A stretch of 53,942 nucleotides of DNA from a virus: the IMG/VR virus record IMGVR_UViG_3300047470_000541, positions 1 through 53,942 of that record. One strand, written 5' to 3'. Below the pieces are notes generated by a model. The model was given only the letters and a program-made list of their open reading frames with translations. It had not been told where the DNA came from and did no database searches. The position numbers were made by a program, and so were the translations under genes. Within the stretch, counting starts at the first letter, position 1, and each line of letters begins with the position of its first letter. Below are positions 5,768 through 49,916 of the stretch, piece after piece.

Positions 5768-6049
5768 ATGGACGCTTCACAGGTAAAACACACTGTAAAA
5801 CTCGACACCAATATCTCCTCTGTGTGCCCTTACTGCACTCAATGGCAGGAAGGTCGAGATATCGACGTAAACATCAACCACCTCATACAGGCTCATGGAG
5901 GGACCGTTCTGCATGTGGGGTGCGAGTCATCAATGGATGATGGTAATCGGCCGTATCATCAGACAGTGGCGATACTGGGCTTCAAAGATATTCCGCCAGA
6001 GAAGCCTCCTGTGAAGTTCGTTATTGAAAGGACAGTTCCAGGGGAATAG
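5768..6049 (+). CDS. Hypothetical protein with a Cys pair
   Basis: 93 aa from the ATG at 5768, with GGAG upstream. Contains 'SVCPYCTQWQ', then a His-rich stretch 'NHLIQAHGGTVLHVGCES', so C-C-H-H spacing could form a zinc finger. Rightward between two leftward methyltransferase genes, again suggesting independent expression. Not recognised. Confidence 0.5.
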   Translation: MDASQVKHTVKLDTNISSVCPYCTQWQEGRDIDVNINHLIQAHGGTVLHVGCESSMDDGNRPYHQTVAILGFKDIPPEKPPVKFVIERTVPGE

Positions 6050-6072: not shown

Positions 6073-6840
6073 TCATGCGAACATGTCGATTTGCGGCGCC
6101 GGCGTGTTCACCCTGATCAGCTCGGCATCCAAGCGAGATTTCGCGGTAGCGAAAATCGCTTCGTCCTGCTCGATTCCCAGGAACCGGCGGTTGAGCTGAA
6201 GGCAGGCGACACCGGTGGAACCGCTTCCCATCGTGTTATCCATTACCACTTGTCCCGGGTTGGTGTAGGTGCTGATCAGGAACTTCATCCAGGCGACTGG
6301 CTTCTGCGTTGGGTGAAAGCTTCCGGACTGCTTGTCGCTTGAAAAGAACTGAACCGAGCGCGGGTACCGGTCTGTTGAGTCGTATTCGGTAAGGCGCAAG
6401 GCCTTCCCGTAGCACTCGGAATCAACTGTCTTCCGCTAGCTGGTCTTGCGCTCATGCCCGGTCGACATCTGCGGGTTGTACACCGGTTGCTGGCGGTAAA
6501 AGACCTGTGCGCTTTCGTGTGCTCGGAGCGGCTGCTTCTTGGCGTTCAGAAACCCGGTGGCGTTGCCTTTTTCCCAGATCCATTCATACCGGTAGTGCCT
6601 TGGGTTGCTGGCCACCACCAGCGAAGCGAACGGCTGGGCTGCACACAACACAATGGCCGCCTCGGGCTTGGCGATTCGTAGGTACTCACGCCAGAGTGTG
6701 TCGAAGGGGATGATCGCATCCCACGCGCACTGGGTCGTGCCGTAGGGCAGATCAGCGAGGATCAAGTCGACACTGTTGTCCGGCATGGTTTTCATCACCT
6801 CAAGGCAATCGCCGAGGTACAACCAAGGCTCCATGGCCAT
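6073..6840 (-). pseudogene. DNA adenine/N4-cytosine methyltransferase interrupted by in-frame TAG
   Basis: The reading frame runs 6840 to 6073 with one TAG at 6436-6438. The first part (134 aa) has 'YLGDCLEVM' and the catalytic 'ADLPYGTT' (DPPY-type). The second part has 'SFHPTQKPVAWM' and the AdoMet loop 'NTMGSGSTG'. The order DPPY then FxGxG suits a beta-class enzyme of about 255 aa. Both halves lie in exactly the same frame (start distance divisible by three), and codons flanking the TAG read on smoothly. A single point mutation, or amber readthrough, explains it. A TTG at 6399 could restart translation but would lack the catalytic motif. Confidence 0.85.
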
Positions 6841-6860: not shown

Positions 6861-8021
6861 TTATTTCTTCGAAAAGGTCTTGGTCAAGGCGCCGTTGACT
6901 GCATGGCCGCGCCTCAGAACAACATTTGCCAACTTCTCGCGGTCCTTCTCGCTATGACTGGCCTGACTGAGCAGGCCGAAATAGCTGTTGGCAGTCTCCC
7001 GCAGATCCTCGGCCGGTGCAGCAGCGGTGCGCTTTATGGCCTGAGCCAGCGAACGCTTGCGGGTGGTTCGCCGCCACGGCTTGATGATGTGACCAACGAA
7101 GTCGACGCCGCGGTCGACCGGTTGCAGGATGGTCTTGGTCGGGTTCAGCTTGGCGCCCAAGCTGGGAAGGAAGGCTTCGACCTCCGCCAGCCAGGCGTTG
7201 AGCTGTTGCGGCGACTCATGCAAGAACACGAAGTCATCGACGTAGCGGACATAATGCTTGGCGCGGAGCGTGTGCTTGGCGAACTGGTCCAGTGCGTCGA
7301 GGTAGACGTTGGCAAAGAACTGCGACGACAGGTTGCCGATGGGCAGGCCGAGATGTGCAGGCTGCGCGGTGAGGCGCTTGTGCTGCGGCACCCGGTTAAA
7401 CAGATGGGCCGCGCTGCGCACCTCGTAGTCTTCGCGAGGGTCGTGCATCAGGATCTGTTCGGCGAGTGCCAGCCACCAGGGCTCGGTGATCTTGGCGGCC
7501 AGCTGCCGACGCAGGACCTGTTTGTCGATGGCGACGAAGAAGTTGGCCAGGTCGAGCTTGAGATACCAGCAGGGCGTCGACCAGTTCTGGCTGGCGCTGC
7601 GGATCTTCGCCTCAAGTCGTTTCGCAGCGTACAACGTGCCGCGCCCGGGGATACAGGCGCAACTGTCCGCTATGAAGCTGGCGTAGAAGCGCGGTGCCAC
7701 ACGGTTGTACAGCAGGTGGTGGACGACGCGGTCCCGGAACGCAGCGGCCCAGACTTCTCGGGCTTTTGGTCGGGTGACCACGAAGCATATCGAACGGCCT
7801 GGCCGGTAAGTGCCGGCGATCAGGTCGTCGTGTAGACCGATCAGATTGCGTTCCAGATCCATTTCGAAGGCCAATGCACTGGCGCTGTTGCGCTTCGTGC
7901 GCCGGCAGTCGTAATAGGCCTGAACCAGTTCGCTGAACGGGTAGGGACCAACAGTCGAATCTGCGGACGGGGCGGACGCGGAGCTCGTTGTTCTTGTCAT
8001 CGTTGTTCTGATTGCCATCAT
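6861..8021 (-). CDS. Diversity-generating retroelement reverse transcriptase
   Basis: 386 aa at the earliest ATG. It copies the template repeat RNA into adenine-mutated cDNA that replaces variable repeats. Palm motifs: 'YLKLDLANFF' (Asp157), the DGR-typical 'GLPIGNLSSQ' (225-234) and catalytic 'YVDD' (260-263), then 'GVDFVGH'. No maturase or endonuclease domain follows, unlike group II introns. The start is unusual: ATG 8021 lies inside the template repeat, so about 20 N-terminal residues are template-encoded in another frame; no clear ribosome site is seen. The next in-frame Met (residue 54) would cut into the conserved part. Last gene of the DGR cassette. Confidence 0.93.
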   Translation of the reverse strand: MMAIRTTMTRTTSSASAPSADSTVGPYPFSELVQAYYDCRRTKRNSASALAFEMDLERNLIGLHDDLIAGTYRPGRSICFVVTRPKAREVWAAAFRDRVVHHLLYNRVAPRFYASFIADSCACIPGRGTLYAAKRLEAKIRSASQNWSTPCWYLKLDLANFFVAIDKQVLRRQLAAKITEPWWLALAEQILMHDPREDYEVRSAAHLFNRVPQHKRLTAQPAHLGLPIGNLSSQFFANVYLDALDQFAKHTLRAKHYVRYVDDFVFLHESPQQLNAWLAEVEAFLPSLGAKLNPTKTILQPVDRGVDFVGHIIKPWRRTTRKRSLAQAIKRTAAAPAEDLRETANSYFGLLSQASHSEKDREKLANVVLRRGHAVNGALTKTFSKK

Positions 8022-8061
8022 CGAAGTTCATGTTGAATGCGTTGTTGGCGGAGCGCTGCGA
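7961..8061 (-). repeat. DGR template repeat (TR)
   Basis: 101 bp. In the coding (minus) sense it carries 30 adenines, many as AAC codons when read in the target-gene frame (that frame gives '...NAFNMNFDDGNQNNDD...'). It matches VR1 (8660-8760) with 15 differences, 14 at template A, and VR2 (9354-9454) with 18 differences, 17 at template A. The GC-rich end near 7961 corresponds to the initiation (IMH-like) segment; each VR has one non-A change there. Overlaps the first 61 bp of the reverse transcriptase ORF. Confidence 0.96.
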
Positions 8062-8232
8062 CCAATCGTGCTATCTACGTCGCCAAGCCGAAGGCAGAAC
8101 CGATCAGCGAGGAAACTGCGCGAGACCAGCACGGACGCTTTAGACCGTCGGTATCTCTGATGCGCATGGCGGTGACCCAGAGGTCAGCGGCACGACCAGA
8201 TTCAATTCGCACAGACCTGAAAGCCGTGACTC

Positions 8233-8589
8233 TCAGGTGGCGGGCGCGGTTGGGATTGAGCGTTTCCAGGCAGACGCCTGCTTGCCGATGGAGGTGGTGA
8301 CCTCTATCGCGGCGGCGTGCTGCCCGACACTGATGAACCGACTCTCTTTGAAGAGCCGCATCAGGAACTCGATGACCTGGACCTTCTCAATTAGCAAGGT
8401 CAGGTGTGGACTCTTGTCCCGGGTCGAGTTGGCCCGGGCAATCAACATCAGCACGTCGATACATTCATCGATGACGCGCTTCCCGAGAGACTGCTTGAGA
8501 TCTCGGGGTATGTTGCGAGTGAGGTTCGTGGCCATCTGCAGCAGGCCGAGCGAAGCCTTGTAGATACTCAAATCCGTGTGCATTCCCAT
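8233..8589 (-). CDS. avd: DGR accessory variability determinant (Avd-like)
   Basis: 118 aa, all-helical and basic, beginning MGMHTDLSIYKASLG. Length, helix pattern ('LSIYKASLGLLQMATNL', 'RVIDECIDVLMLIARAN', 'LLIEKVQVIEFLMRLFKE') and place between target and template match Avd four-helix-bundle proteins. In Bordetella phage BPP-1, Avd forms a pentamer that binds the reverse transcriptase and template RNA. GGAGAG lies about 9 bases before the ATG. 171 bp separate its stop from the template repeat; I see no gene there. Confidence 0.88.
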   Translation of the reverse strand: MGMHTDLSIYKASLGLLQMATNLTRNIPRDLKQSLGKRVIDECIDVLMLIARANSTRDKSPHLTLLIEKVQVIEFLMRLFKESRFISVGQHAAAIEVTTSIGKQASAWKRSIPTAPAT

Positions 8590-8611
8590 GATGGGTGCTC
8601 TCCAAGAGCAA

Positions 8612-8629
8612 CCGGCCGCAGGCGGCCGG
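8612..8629 (-). other. GC-rich hairpin after VR1 (candidate DGR hairpin)
   Basis: CCGGCCG/CGGCCGG perfect 7-bp stem with a 4-base loop, 31 bp past the end of VR1 and before avd. No T tract follows, so it is a poor terminator. In BPP-1 a hairpin/cruciform just downstream of the variable repeat is needed for efficient target recognition; this one is in the equivalent place. Confidence 0.5.
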
Positions 8630-8643
8630 ATTAAATTAACGAA

Positions 8644-9264
8644 TTATTGAATAAGCTGACTGCGGACGGGGCGGACGCGGCGCTCGCCGTACTTGCCACC
8701 GTAGTACTGAGTGCCATCATCGAAGAACATGCCGAATGCGTTGCGGGCGGAGCGCTGCGAACTCGACCAGTACCAGGTGTCCCGGAAGGCTTCGGCACCG
8801 CCAGCTTGAAAGGCAGTAATCGAGGTCTGTTCTGGCGACTCTTCGCTGTACAGTTGGCCAGCCGGCTCGCTGTTCGGGTTGTCACCATCGCGGCGGCCAG
8901 CCCAATTCTCTTCGGTGGTCGGCTTGAAGTGGCGATACTGCAGCTCCTGCACGTCGCGCGCCGGGATCGCCCAGTCTGTGAAACCGCCGATATCCAGAGC
9001 CAGCACCTGCTGCGCCAGTTCGCTACCGGCGGCTGCCATGGCTTCAGTATTGGCACGGCTGTTGGTGAAACTGTCGGCGCCTTCGATCTTCTCGCCGTAC
9101 TCTCCCCAAGCACCGCTTAGTTCGTACGCGGCGCCCGCGGTGATGTTCAGGTAGCGGTTACCAGTGTCCGGATCGTGGGTGATCCCGCTGAAGAACCCGC
9201 CGCCGAATGGCTGGCCGATTTCCGGAATGGTCATCGCTGGAGTTGCTTGGGCTGCTGCGGTCAT
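8644..9264 (-). CDS. DGR target protein 1, C-type-lectin-like variable domain
   Basis: 206 aa from the ATG at 9264, chosen for its AGAGGAAAG ribosome site over one 27 bp upstream. The C-terminal part ('FRDTWYWSSSQRSA...RRVRPVRS') is the DUF1566/CLec-like fold used by DGR targets, where surface residues can vary without breaking the fold. The last codons are the 101-bp VR1: relative to the template frame, several Asn codons became Arg, Gly, Phe, Thr and Tyr. The N-terminal half (PFGGGFFSG, GNRYLNITAGAAYEL) is unlike known fibre modules. No signal peptide. Ligand and location unknown. Confidence 0.88.
   Translation of the reverse strand: MTAAAQATPAMTIPEIGQPFGGGFFSGITHDPDTGNRYLNITAGAAYELSGAWGEYGEKIEGADSFTNSRANTEAMAAAGSELAQQVLALDIGGFTDWAIPARDVQELQYRHFKPTTEENWAGRRDGDNPNSEPAGQLYSEESPEQTSITAFQAGGAEAFRDTWYWSSSQRSARNAFGMFFDDGTQYYGGKYGERRVRPVRSQLIQ
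8660..8760 (-). repeat. DGR variable repeat 1 (VR1)
   Basis: 101 bp at the 3' end of target gene 1, aligned without gaps to the template at 7961-8061. 86 of 101 bases are identical. 14 of 15 differences are at template adenines (coding strand), changed to G, T or C; the remaining one is a T-to-G in the GC-rich 3' segment. Confidence 0.96.
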
Positions 9265-9290
9265 GGTCTTTCCTCTTTTCGAAGGCAACA

Positions 9291-9309
9291 AAAAAGGCGC
9301 TGCTGCGCC
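9291..9309 (-). terminator. Hairpin and T-run after VR2 gene
   Basis: GGCGC-AGCA-GCGCC stem-loop followed by six T on the minus strand, between target gene 2 and target gene 1, 45 bp past the end of VR2. Works on paper as an intrinsic terminator; by position it could also serve as the DGR hairpin for VR2. Confidence 0.6.
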
Positions 9310-9340
9310 CGGTGCCGATCAAGAACGAATGATTGAAAGA

Positions 9341-9949
9341 TTAAATAAAGAATCTGCGGACGGGGCGGCCGCGGAGCTCGTGGCCCTTGTCACCGTAGCC
9401 CTGATAGCCACCAGCGAAGGACATGTAGAACGCGACGTAGGCGGAGCGCTGCGATGAAGACCAGTACCAGGTGTCTTTCGCGAACAATTCCGGCACATTC
9501 AACCAGCAGTGGTACAGCTCGCCGCAGGCGGGCAGGTAGAAATCATCGTGGCCGTCAGCTTGGTGCTCGGCGCAGGCGTCTGCTGCTGGATGATCGTCGC
9601 GATCATCGGCGTACAGTGCTTGGGTATTGGCGAGGCCATCGGTCTTGCTGGTAGCCTCAGACTCCTTGCCTCGACCGCCCCACTCATGTTTGCCGAGGTC
9701 GTCCTTGGCGATGATCAGGTAATGCGCCGGAACATCGCCGCGCGCCGCTACCAGGCCGCCATTGAACCCGCCTTGTCCGGGCCAGTATTCGCCGAGCGCC
9801 GGAATAGGGCCTGATGCAACTGCTTGAACATTGGCTGCTGGCGGCAGTGCCTGGGCAAGCATGCCAGCCATTAGCAGCTGAACCATGCGTTCGGACGTGC
9901 CCTTGATCTTGATGCCTTCCGCTTCAATAGAGATCGTATTGGCTTTCAT
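9341..9949 (-). CDS. DGR target protein 2, C-type-lectin-like variable domain
   Basis: 202 aa from the ATG at 9949 (GAGGGAT ribosome site). The N-terminus MKANTISIEAEGIKIKG and 'MVQLLMAGMLAQAL' differ fully from target 1. The C-terminal domain ('DDFYLPACGELYHCWL', 'DTWYWSSSQRSAY...RGRPVRR') is again DUF1566/CLec-like. The final 101 bp are VR2, with Tyr, Val, Ser, Ala, Gly and His replacing template-encoded Asn and Asp. First gene of the DGR cassette. The middle contains an acidic, His-rich stretch. Partner and location unknown. Confidence 0.88.
   Translation of the reverse strand: MKANTISIEAEGIKIKGTSERMVQLLMAGMLAQALPPAANVQAVASGPIPALGEYWPGQGGFNGGLVAARGDVPAHYLIIAKDDLGKHEWGGRGKESEATSKTDGLANTQALYADDRDDHPAADACAEHQADGHDDFYLPACGELYHCWLNVPELFAKDTWYWSSSQRSAYVAFYMSFAGGYQGYGDKGHELRGRPVRRFFI
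9354..9454 (-). repeat. DGR variable repeat 2 (VR2)
   Basis: 101 bp ending target gene 2, gap-free alignment to the template with 83 of 101 identical. 17 of 18 differences lie at template adenines (coding strand); the other is a T-to-G near the GC-rich end. Its substitution pattern differs from VR1, so both were mutated independently. Confidence 0.96.
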
Positions 9950-16352: not shown

Positions 16353-17213
16353 TCAGACCTTCTGTGCATTCCAGACGAGTAGAACCTTGGCGTGGATGGT
16401 TACGTCATCGATCCGCGCAGTCTGATTCTCGTAATGTTTGTTGTCAGAGATCATCCGCAGGTGATCCTCGTCGACCTGCTGCAGTCTTTTGATATAGAGG
16501 AGGCCATGCCAGGTCAGTACGTAAACGCCATCCCCAATGAACTCGTTTACGCCACGGTCAACGATGACAGGATCTTTGTCATTGATCGTGCCTTCCATGC
16601 TCTGGCCCCAGCCGGTGATCATCGCCAGCGCAGCAGCAGAGGTATAGGTGACACCTTTCTCGCGCAGCACATCCTCCCGCACGATCAGGTTGCGAATGGC
16701 CTCGTTATAGTCGGCCGGCACCTGGCCGTGTCCCATCGCAGCGCGCACGTCGTACTGCGGAATCAGGATCTCGTCCGGCCTTGCCTTCAACCCCGAGAAG
16801 TCGGCTTCAATGACTTTCCCGCCCGACTCGCTCGCAACTGCCAGCGCGGCAGCAGCTAGTTTCTCCTGGGCAGCCGAATCAAGACTCTTGCCGGCATGCT
16901 TGCGGATCATTTCAAGCATTTTTTGAGCAGCCCCGGTTCCAGTAACAGCGACACCAGTGCTCTCGGTTTGCCCCACCTTTCTATGGGGAGGCTCCCCCTT
17001 GCCCGATAGAAGCCAGTCGACCGTGGTGTCGTAGCCCTCAGCTATGGCAATGAGGTTCTCGTTCTTGATGTTCTCCGTGTCCCCGGCAAACCACTGGCGC
17101 ACGGCTTCATAGCTGACCCCGCAAGTGGTCGCCAAGTCACGCTTAAACCCACGTACGCCGATTTCCGGCTTCCTCGCGAGCACAAGTTTTGTAATTCGAT
17201 CAGTGGTTTTCAT
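16353..17213 (-). CDS. cI: CI-type repressor, HTH plus S24 peptidase domain
   Basis: 286 aa. The N-terminal HTH (about residues 15-60) contains 'CGVSYEAVRQWFAGD'. The C-terminal LexA/S24 domain has the catalytic Ser205 in 'GWGQSMEGTI' and Lys242 in 'LLYIKRLQ', with 'GDGVYVLTWHG' between. It should bind the 12-bp palindromes at both operator clusters and keep lysogeny. At the expected cleavage bond the sequence is Ala159-Met160-Gly ('RAAMGHG') instead of Ala-Gly. No clear ribosome site precedes the ATG, which lies only 12 bp from an operator, as in lambda where the cI transcript from pRM is leaderless. Confidence 0.92.
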   Translation of the reverse strand: MKTTDRITKLVLARKPEIGVRGFKRDLATTCGVSYEAVRQWFAGDTENIKNENLIAIAEGYDTTVDWLLSGKGEPPHRKVGQTESTGVAVTGTGAAQKMLEMIRKHAGKSLDSAAQEKLAAAALAVASESGGKVIEADFSGLKARPDEILIPQYDVRAAMGHGQVPADYNEAIRNLIVREDVLREKGVTYTSAAALAMITGWGQSMEGTINDKDPVIVDRGVNEFIGDGVYVLTWHGLLYIKRLQQVDEDHLRMISDNKHYENQTARIDDVTIHAKVLLVWNAQKV

Positions 17214-46435: not shown

Positions 46436-46461
46436 AGCCGCCTTCATTGGCGGCTTTTTTT
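46436..46461 (+). terminator. Terminator-like hairpin before the fibre gene
   Basis: AGCCGCC-TTCATT-GGCGGCT followed by six or more T. Confidence 0.85.
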
Positions 46462-46471
46462 GGAGCAAACA

Positions 46472-48175
46472 ATGGATCGAGTCACTATTTATCCGGGAGC
46501 TATTCCTCTCGAAACGGACCTGCTCAGCACCAACAAGAACATGATGATTGCGCTGAGCAAGCTGTCGGCGGCAATGTTGGGTACTGGCACGGTTGCGAAC
46601 GGCTTTGCCGTGACACCAACTGGCCCGGCATCGCTGCAAGTTATCGCGGCCCCCGGTGAGATCTACAGCCTCCAGAACGTGGACGGAACGGCTTACAGCA
46701 GCATCGCCGCCGACACCACGCACCAGATCGTCAAACAGGGCATTTTGCTCGACTCCTCGACGCTGAGTTGCCCAGCGCCAGGCACTACCGGCCAGTCCAT
46801 CAACTACCTGATCGAAGTCGCCTATCAGGATCTCGACGCGAACCCAGTGGTGCTGCCGTATTACAACGCCAGCAACCCATCTCAAGCCTACAGCGGCCCG
46901 TCGAACAGCGGTGTGGCGCAGAATACCTCCCGCCGCGGCGTGGCCGTCATTCAGGTAAAGGCTGGCGCATCTGCAACCACGGGAAGCCAAGTGACTCCCG
47001 CACCGGATGCAGGCTTTGTCGGCCTTTATGTGGTTACCGTCGCATTCGGCCAGACCACCATCACATCAGGCAACATCAGTCAGTACAGCGGTGCCCCCCT
47101 AATTCCTGGTGGGCTGCTCCAAGCTGTCCAGAACGCCTCAACCACTGGCGGCACTGACATCGGCACGGCCAACGCTTACGCCGCCAACTTCACTCCCGCT
47201 ATTACTGCTCTGACTGACAAAATGGTGCTGTGCATCAAAGCGGTGAACGCTAACACCGCGGCCAGCACCTTCACTCCAGCGCCTGGTGTAATCGCAACCG
47301 CCCCAATCGTCGGTGGCAACCACTCCGCACTTCAAGGTGGCGAGATTGCTGTCAATGGCGATGTATGGCTGCAATGGAACAGTTCGATTGGCGCCGGTTC
47401 ATGGGTTCTGATTGATAGCACTGGGGGCGGGATGCAAATCGCCCCAGCAACCAAAAGCCAGCACGCCCTGCAGCTCGCTCAGGCAACTGGCCGCCTGCTA
47501 CGAACCTCTGTATATCGGAACAACGCGGGTACGCTTCAAGTATCTATCGATGGGGCTGCATTCGCCAACGTGGGGTCAACATTCACAGCATTGGCACTTA
47601 CTACCTCTGTCATTGTTCAGGTGCTTGGCGGTGGTGGCGGCGGTGGTGGTGCGGCTCCTACCGGCGCAGCGCAGACTGCAAACGGTTCAGGGGGTGGTGC
47701 TGGCGGGTATGGCAAAAGCCGAATACTGTCTGGGTTTTCTGGCGTGACTGTAGCTGTCGGAGCTGGCGGCACTGCGTCTGCCGGTGTGGCGGGCGGTAAT
47801 GGCGGTACATCTTCTTTTGGCGGCCTAATATCCTCGGCCGGCGGACAGGGCGGTGTCCTCGGCGCCGCTTTGCCAACGTCGACCACCGCCCCAGTAGGAC
47901 AGGCTTCTGGCGGTACATCCACCGGTGGCAATATGATCAGTAGCACAGGCTCTACTGGGAAATCTGCGTTTTATTCGGCAAACAACATTAGCGGAACGGG
48001 CGGCGATTCCGTATACGGCGGAGGCGCTGCATTTGTAAGCGGGATATCGTCGGGCAACCAAGCTGTATCACCGGGCTCGGGCGGTTCCGGGGCGGCGCTT
48101 CCAGCAAGTTCTGGGTCTGCCGCTGGCGGTGGCGCTGGTGCAGGCGGTTTGGTGACTATCGAGGAATATGCATAA
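46472..48175 (+). CDS. Tail fibre protein with glycine-rich tip
   Basis: 567 aa from the ATG at 46472 (GGAG). The N-terminal half ('RVTIYPGAIPLETDLLSTNKNMM', 'APGEIYSLQNVDGTAYSSI') is the baseplate-attaching fibre part. From about residue 390 on it is extremely Gly-rich with GGxG runs, as in polyglycine-helix adhesin tips that determine host range. Followed by a fibre assembly gene. Its end is not a DGR variable repeat. Confidence 0.82.
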   Translation: MDRVTIYPGAIPLETDLLSTNKNMMIALSKLSAAMLGTGTVANGFAVTPTGPASLQVIAAPGEIYSLQNVDGTAYSSIAADTTHQIVKQGILLDSSTLSCPAPGTTGQSINYLIEVAYQDLDANPVVLPYYNASNPSQAYSGPSNSGVAQNTSRRGVAVIQVKAGASATTGSQVTPAPDAGFVGLYVVTVAFGQTTITSGNISQYSGAPLIPGGLLQAVQNASTTGGTDIGTANAYAANFTPAITALTDKMVLCIKAVNANTAASTFTPAPGVIATAPIVGGNHSALQGGEIAVNGDVWLQWNSSIGAGSWVLIDSTGGGMQIAPATKSQHALQLAQATGRLLRTSVYRNNAGTLQVSIDGAAFANVGSTFTALALTTSVIVQVLGGGGGGGGAAPTGAAQTANGSGGGAGGYGKSRILSGFSGVTVAVGAGGTASAGVAGGNGGTSSFGGLISSAGGQGGVLGAALPTSTTAPVGQASGGTSTGGNMISSTGSTGKSAFYSANNISGTGGDSVYGGGAAFVSGISSGNQAVSPGSGGSGAALPASSGSAAGGGAGAGGLVTIEEYA

Positions 48176-48779: not shown

Positions 48780-49916
48780 TTAAATCGTAACCGTTTCAGG
48801 AGCGGCTTTCCTCGCGGATGGGAGTTTGATCCTTTCTAGATAGCGTTCTGAGATATGTGCGATAGGTATTGTAATCGCCGCTAGCACTAGTCCTGTTAGC
48901 ATGCCAAGTGTTATATAGTAGTCGCTAACGGTTATTCCAGAAATGTAATAGGCAATTATGTAAAGCAGCGGTACGTTCCAAAGGTAAAGGCTGTAACTAA
49001 TCTTTCCGAGATATTGTGAAATACCAAGTGACAGAAATTTGTTGAGGGCGCTTTGCTCTTTCCCCATTACATGAGTTATTACGAAAAATAACGCTCCGAT
49101 CTGCAAGATGAAAGGGGTTAGGTAGAACGGGCTTGCCAGTGTCATTAGGAAGATAAATAAAAATAGAAAAATAGCCCATTTGAACTTTGAGGTGCTTTCA
49201 ATTACTGCCTTTGACTCGTAAAGGTTCGCAGCTAACATTCCTATGGTAAAGCAGGGCATCCAAAGGTACGCGGAAGCTGATCCCAGCCCCATGGCAGATA
49301 CCTCTCGAACCATTAGAGAATACCCTAGAAGCATGAAAAGGGCAGCGATTCCTAGCCAGCGTTTCAAGGCAAAGGCTAGCAACAGGAACGGGATTGCAAT
49401 CATCTCCACCTGAAGTGTCCACGACGCGCCGTGAAGGGTAATTTGATAAAGTGTTGCATTTTTTATTACATCAATAATTGGGATTGCTGGGTACGTTGCG
49501 GGTGCTAAAGTATTTACAAATTGATTTATCAGGAAAAAGACGAATAGGCAAACGATAAGCGCCGGATAAATACGCACCACGCGTTTAGCTGTAAATACAA
49601 ATGGAAGCTTCAACCAGTCTGATGCTGTGTCTGCTTTCAATGATCTGAATAGGACTGCGCCACTAATTCCAAAAAATAGCATAACGGCTGTTTGGCCGTT
49701 GATTAAACTCAAAAGAAACTTTAACAGAATGTCGGGAAAGCTTGCAGACCATGTGCTCGACGTTAAAACGTCACCTACTCTATGGCCTACGGGCCTCTTG
49801 TCGATGAATATAAGTAGCGAATGATAAAAAATTACCATCAAAGCGGCGTATCCACGTAGGCCGTCGATGGCGTGTATCCGCTCAGTTTTTTGAGTTGTTG
49901 AAATTTCTGCGCTCAT
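48780..49916 (-). CDS. Acyltransferase-3 family membrane protein (probable O-antigen modifier)
   Basis: 378 aa, about ten membrane helices. Family marks: 'HAIDGLRGYAALMVIFYH' (Arg-Gly-Tyr and the active His), 'RVVRIYPAL', 'GASWTLQVEM' and 'LGKISYSLYLWNVPLLY'. These enzymes move acetyl or other acyl groups to surface polysaccharide. Reverse strand, clearly AT-richer than neighbours and placed after the fibre genes: a classic lysogenic-conversion moron that could change the receptor and block superinfection. Confidence 0.85.
   Translation of the reverse strand: MSAEISTTQKTERIHAIDGLRGYAALMVIFYHSLLIFIDKRPVGHRVGDVLTSSTWSASFPDILLKFLLSLINGQTAVMLFFGISGAVLFRSLKADTASDWLKLPFVFTAKRVVRIYPALIVCLFVFFLINQFVNTLAPATYPAIPIIDVIKNATLYQITLHGASWTLQVEMIAIPFLLLAFALKRWLGIAALFMLLGYSLMVREVSAMGLGSASAYLWMPCFTIGMLAANLYESKAVIESTSKFKWAIFLFLFIFLMTLASPFYLTPFILQIGALFFVITHVMGKEQSALNKFLSLGISQYLGKISYSLYLWNVPLLYIIAYYISGITVSDYYITLGMLTGLVLAAITIPIAHISERYLERIKLPSARKAAPETVTI

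Follow-up and report, generated by a model that had tools for sequence, protein, structure and literature searches.

The 53,942-nt viral DNA that was analysed in this study (hereafter, the window) most probably carries a functional diversity-generating retroelement (DGR), in which one template repeat (TR) diversifies the ends of two paralogous target genes. Based on the sequence, we put the probability of this explanation as a whole at about 0.95. The features of the DGR are collected in Table 1.

Table 1. Positions of the DGR features in the window
Feature	Position	Strand	Description
DGR reverse transcriptase (RT)	6861..8021	minus	386-aa frame; conserved from about residue 24; motifs IGNLSSQ and YVDD
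Template repeat (TR)	7961-8061	minus	30 adenines; the RT frame starts within it (ATG 8021)
RT-15 structured RNA (RF03018)	8059..8249	minus	5′ leader of TR; 179.6 bits, E 8e-45
avd, accessory variability determinant	8233..8589	minus	118 aa; bAvd PF22296, E 1.5e-11
GC-rich inverted repeat, VR1	8612..8629	minus	CCGGCCGCCTGCGGCCGG; in most Pseudomonas relatives
AT-rich 4-nt-periodic tract, VR1	8630..8659	minus	after VR1
Target 1	8644..9264	minus	206 aa, putative Lcl/C-type-lectin-like; phrog_4245, E 1.7e-32; model and fold match
Variable repeat VR1	8660-8760	minus	14 A changes + 1 T
GC-rich inverted repeat, VR2	9296..9309	minus	GGCGCAGCAGCGCC, then TTTTTT; also terminator-like
AT-rich 4-nt-periodic tract, VR2	9323..9353	minus	after VR2
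Target 2	9341..9949	minus	202 aa, putative Lcl/C-type-lectin-like; N-terminal extension of ~45 residues; phrog_4245, E 2.9e-31
Variable repeat VR2	9354-9454	minus	17 A changes + 1 T

The TR and both variable repeats (VRs) are 101-nt copies without gaps, the VRs being located at the 3′ ends of two different genes. Read on the minus strand, the TR contains 30 A, 35 C, 22 G and 14 T, and the cassette runs in the order target 2, target 1, avd, TR and RT. The positions of the repeats, this gene order and the difference counts (14 of the 30 template adenines plus one other base in VR1, 17 plus one in VR2) had all been given in the initial annotation and were reproduced here. The changes comprised seven A to G, five A to T, two A to C and one T to G in VR1, and eight, six, three and one, respectively, in VR2. 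Nine altered sites were common to both VRs and the others were distinct; the match of VR2 to the TR extends over 105 nt, which is 4 nt beyond that of VR1. These VR copies were first detected by a repeat search without an adenine-tolerance filter. A BLAST search with the TR, which covered the whole 53,942-base IMG/VR virus record, returned only the TR, VR1 and VR2 and no further TR-like sequence, so that no third target was seen in the window. The start of target 1 was corrected from TTG 9291 to ATG 9264.

The RT matched PF00078 (RVT_1; E 9.8e-19) and phrog_1423 (E 1.2e-117), and both motifs given in Table 1 were present in its translation. Its closest PDB structure was 8ub7 (E 9.4e-36; listed under the title 'Reverse transcriptase'), which we take to be the DGR reverse transcriptase of BPP-1; the enzyme is thus of the DGR type. 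The avd product was recognised as an Avd by PF22296, with a score that exceeded the cut-off, and by phrog_3206 ('Avd protein of DGR'; E 9.7e-30); no match was found when it was compared with solved structures. Along with the adenine bias across the relatives, these RT and Avd matches bear out the DGR identity that was initially proposed. The opening of the RT frame was corrected to ATG 8021, which lies within the TR and is preceded by no visible Shine-Dalgarno sequence. Of 96 distinct loci, 94 have start codons of the RT frame inside the TR; 29 of them additionally offer a possible ATG, GTG or TTG downstream of the TR.

RT searches yielded 56 genome loci and 80 virus loci, in which the TR-VR pairs were found using a script for A-tolerant gap-free repeats. 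This gave 262 pairs in 128 loci, with the window counted. Two targets are usual here: exactly two VRs were present in 115 loci, three in eight, four in one and one in four. Besides the nine relatives that had three or four VRs in the fetched loci, some carry further VRs about 6–7 kb upstream. The TR and VRs were nearly identical except at the template adenines. When substitutions were counted by template base, as the initial annotation had proposed, template A was substituted in 43% of the cells for VR1 and 44% for VR2, compared with 0.2–0.6% for C, G and T; the A-tolerant search biases the absolute non-A rate low, and pairs with balanced change would score too low to be so common. The pairs were therefore adenine-biased and did not show the equal spread over bases that had been named beforehand as evidence against a DGR. 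It could be argued that drift without retrohoming, acting on the ends of ordinary paralogous genes, gave rise to the VRs, since the targets are paralogous and a repeat search found their ends to be alike over 148 nt, which exceeds the 101-nt VR. Drift is refuted by the base counts, as the per-site change at template A was ~75–250 times that at C, G or T in the 128 loci, and we give this explanation practically no credence.

Comparisons of the backbones were made with the VRs masked. Two loci (L123 and L126), in which a backbone of 2819 bp and the TR were identical, differed at 14 sites in VR1, all of which were at A, and at 18 sites in VR2, 17 of which were at A. A third locus (L008) had the same backbone as L083 and differed from it at 19 sites in VR1, all at A, and at none in VR2; compared with L094 (99.7% identity), it had no differences in VR1 and 13 in VR2, all at A. 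VR1 has therefore changed alone in one pair and VR2 alone in another, which means that the two targets are rewritten separately, as had been suggested for the window. Other pairs with identical backbones shared identical VRs, and some of these represent one genome in two collections. Variation of the VRs among near-identical genomes was thus found in the relatives, contrary to the initial proviso that VRs might never vary between identical strains; the window itself is without a near-identical partner. An inactive relic, i.e., VRs that underwent a single past diversification and no longer change, is very improbable. A single genome cannot reveal activity, and some relatives do appear frozen, such as one (L135) whose TR has about 20 A and whose VRs each have one or two A changes, but the RT, avd and TR of the window are intact and its close relatives carry differing VRs on an identical 2.8-kb backbone.

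The mechanism of DGRs is known almost entirely from BPP-1. According to PMC12875486, its 3′ spacer recruits the RT-Avd complex and primes the cDNA. A spacer of this type was not found between the TR and RT in the window; the conserved part of the RT begins within about 30 nt of the TR end, both here and in most relatives. The 172-nt gap between avd and the TR corresponds to a full-length Rfam RT-15 RNA, whose 179.6 bits compare with a gathering score of 82 bits. The initial annotation had overlooked this RNA, along with the tract after the VRs, the early-operon location of the targets and the orphan target copies that are described below. RT-15 was present in all 20 of the relatives scanned, with its 3′ end at the start of the TR. 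In a 40-locus alignment, 44 pairs of the leader structure displayed covariation, with compensatory change in 22 of them. The proportion of paired cells was 98.2% compared with no more than 41% when the structure was slid, and the compensatory cells numbered 146 compared with 11–24; that the structure comes from the alignment on which it was scored favours pairing of the cells and does not account for the compensatory ones. As the TR and RT leave no room for a 3′ spacer between them, we infer, with less certainty than for the DGR itself, that the RT-15 leader may take over the protein-recruiting role of the BPP-1 3′ spacer. A helix between the 3′ end of the TR and the RT coding sequence, with a possible role in priming, was also predicted, and covariation gave it no support. 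With its structured RNA placed opposite to that of BPP-1 relative to the template, this widespread lineage lends itself to asking which segments of the RNA are needed to recruit the enzyme and to prime the cDNA.

Analysis of the VR flanks revealed an AT-rich tract of ~30 nt with a 4-nt period, which was found after the VRs and never after the TR, and which was usually followed by a GC hairpin. The A+T content of the tracts was 68% compared with 45% in the TR flank and 41% in random sequence. Among 45 dissimilar tracts, identity at lags of 4, 8 and 12 was above that of shuffles (z of 11, 14 and 9), and 89% of the tracts exceeded the 99th percentile of random 34-mers drawn from the loci themselves, which none of the TR flanks did. 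The letters of the tract vary among the clades, while the 4-nt period is constant. A role in closing all reading frames was considered and rejected: the tracts closed 1.71 frames compared with 0.87 after shuffling, but an in-frame stop has to be present in any case, and no more than one frame is closed by 20 of the 45 tracts. In a small sample of distant DGRs (BPP-1, VP58.5, phiARM81mr, BalMu-1, Bacteroides F2, ACA1 and ZX4290), the spacers were mostly T-rich and the 4-nt pattern was not evident by eye. The GC-rich end of the VR (IMH) and the inverted repeat that follows it were both found. As PMC3240598 describes, hairpins after the VR are important in BPP-1 and lie 4–34 bp from the VR in phage DGRs; the loops in the window are CCTG or AGCA and do not follow the GRNA consensus of that paper. 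No description of the periodic tract was found by a term search of the literature, nor in the accessible portions of PMC3240598 and PMC12875486, the latter of which describes DGR target recognition as incompletely understood. As a guess, the AT-rich flank could aid cruciform extrusion or the opening of the target strands. The tract, which is conserved beside every VR, is a concrete candidate for a cis element in target recognition.

The C-type-lectin identity of both targets, which was part of the initial annotation, is moderately supported by sequence families and structural modelling. For target 1, the identity was supported, as its model (mean pLDDT 82.7) resembled the C-terminal domain of Legionella Lcl (8q4e; probability 0.99, E 0.014). 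For target 2, it was upheld by family only; its model, which was poor within the VR, had no significant match in the PDB. The Lcl_C matches were below the gathering score for both targets of the window and were seen in 30 of 36 and 31 of 38 homologues. The VRs would accordingly lie at the 3′ ends of C-type-lectin-like genes, as judged from the fold for target 1 and from the family for target 2.

The phage is a temperate tailed phage of the Pseudomonas type, with an integrase (1-978) and a cI-like repressor (16353-17213), to the right of which lie the genes for a contractile tail. The DGR and its targets sit among the leftward early genes, outside the tail module and on the opposite strand from the genes for structural proteins; the tail-fibre gene (46460-48175) is about 36 kb from the targets and has no VR. 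The relatives and Burkholderia phage Magia hold the DGR in the same place, beside recombination genes and the integrase. In a crude test for export signs, no typical hydrophobic segment or lipobox was found in either target. Receptor-binding proteins make up most of the phage DGR targets characterised so far (PMC10743442), and the fold is C-type-lectin-like, which could point to a classical tropism-switching DGR, i.e., to minor virion proteins that, like Mtd of BPP-1, bind the host surface from genes outside the tail module. This account is rather unlikely, given the early operon, the opposite strand and the distance from the tail fibre, the location that the relatives retain, and the orphan target copies, which lie beside cI in D3 and are surrounded by uncharacterised small genes in jumbo phages. 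Because the targets are early-operon proteins and not tail fibres, we lean slightly, on this positional argument, towards a diversified surface that binds a host or rival-phage factor and not an adsorption receptor.

Homologues of the targets were found in D3 (orf68), in nine Wroclawvirus jumbo phages and in FBPa42, U7 and U9. A profile search did not find RVT_1 in D3, U7, U9, FBPa42 or the nine jumbo records. For a comparison with the orphans, the TR was taken from Haboob and phPA-G, which are P. aeruginosa prophage DGRs; the PA5oct copy differed from it by 15 A changes plus one other and the FBPa42 copy by 17 A changes and no other, while those of D3 and MIJ3 had many non-A changes. The nine jumbo phages carried four VR haplotypes; their diversity was 0.065 in the gene body, 0.358 at the template-A sites and 0.150 at the other VR sites. 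No GC hairpin was evident after the orphan VRs, and the tree of the gene bodies was poorly resolved. The orphan VRs may have been rewritten in trans by homing or acquired by recombination, the latter being slightly favoured. The RT-less lytic jumbo phages of the PA5oct group carry orphan copies with adenine-biased VRs, and target copies in such phages suggest that hypervariable genes pass between prophages and lytic phages.

Under the preferred reading of a functional DGR, an RNA that spans RT-15 and the TR would be bound by the RT and Avd, and an error-prone cDNA in which the adenines are randomised would be copied from the TR. This cDNA would replace the VR of one target or the other, each independently, at their common GC-rich 3′ end, with the AT-rich tract and the GC hairpin assisting the replacement. 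A broader combination is put forward tentatively and is less likely than not: the 5′ leader acts in place of the 3′ spacer, the tract marks the targets and helps to open or recognise the site, small intracellular early proteins are diversified, e.g., against host defences or rival phages, and the target ends of the jumbo phages are renewed by resident prophages through trans homing or recombination.

The type of cassette is already known. DGRs with two VRs have been described since 2012 in DiGReF, for Pseudomonas fluorescens WH6, Burkholderia, Ralstonia and Sideroxydans, and targets far from the RT in the same genome were also reported, according to PMC3521204. As described there, these DGRs have one TR and two VRs in paralogous targets, as does the window, and the WH6 host is also a Pseudomonas; they are probably of the same lineage, a likeness that is one of description. 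A term search of the accessible text of PMC3521204 found no leader RNA, periodic tract or jumbo-phage orphans, and no description of the RNA layout, of the tract beside the targets or of target copies in giant lytic phages was found in the literature searched. In Rfam, RF03018 is merely named RT-15 RNA; here, a full-length member is assigned a place directly 5′ of a DGR template, as its leader. The DGR of BPP-1 (L143) resembles that of the window in the order of avd, TR and RT, the A-specific change and the hairpin after the VR. It differs in that its TR abuts avd and is separated from brt by a 144-nt spacer, whereas in the window a structured RNA precedes the TR and the RT begins inside it, and in that its one target is a tail protein, whereas the window has two early-operon proteins. 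The DGR of Magia (L150) is closer, with an RT that is 67% identical and two small lectin-like early-operon targets, one of which its authors annotated as a potential DGR target; however, its TR is about 90 nt, and the tract is present with no GC hairpin seen after the VRs. The RNA layout, the periodic tract and the orphans make the DGR of the window a variant worth testing, with the tract and the jumbo-phage orphans as the main points of interest. Phage DGRs may do more than switch receptors, as is suggested by targets that lie outside the tail module and have copies in lytic phages lacking an RT.

An AT-rich tract with a periodicity of 4 nt immediately follows the VRs and is absent after the TR, both in the window and in all of its relatives. 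When the residues at VR positions matching the AAY codons of the TR were tallied across all loci, the diversified Asn codons were found to be strongly skewed towards Tyr (22%), Gly (14%), Asp (12%) and Ser (10%), with Cys, Arg, Ala and Pro each accounting for less than 1%, which suggests selection or a bias of the RT.

In the relative locus L135, the TR lies just upstream of the RT at 6001, has only about 20 adenines and is nearly identical to the VRs. It was possibly overwritten by a VR copy, which, if true, would mean that the system is frozen. The partial record of phage D14O has a target gene with an intact VR with A-only differences, adjoined by an avd-sized gene. An identical target gene occurs in the virus contigs L202 and L203, in which no match to the RT profile RVT_1 was found; this is possibly a DGR that has decayed. 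Orphan target genes were also present in phages that lack an RT, namely nine Wroclawvirus jumbo phages, which together carry four VR haplotypes, FBPa42 and D3, and several of these genes have adenine-biased VRs.

Among the other genes of the window phage, the DNA methyltransferase reading frame is in two pieces, possibly because of a frameshift or stop mutation. An O-antigen acetylase-like gene, whose orientation is opposite to that of the late genes, is probably a lysogenic conversion gene.

Coordinates of the features in the window and in related loci
Feature	Record	Position
AT-rich 4-nt-periodic tract after VR1	window	8630-8659
AT-rich 4-nt-periodic tract after VR2	window	9323-9353
DNA methyltransferase frame	window	6073-6840 (pieces 6436-6840 and 6073-6399)
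O-antigen acetylase-like gene	window	48780-49916
Target gene	D14O (L166)	2025-2381
Orphan target	L153	2145-2636
Orphan targets	L154, L155, L158-L164, L142
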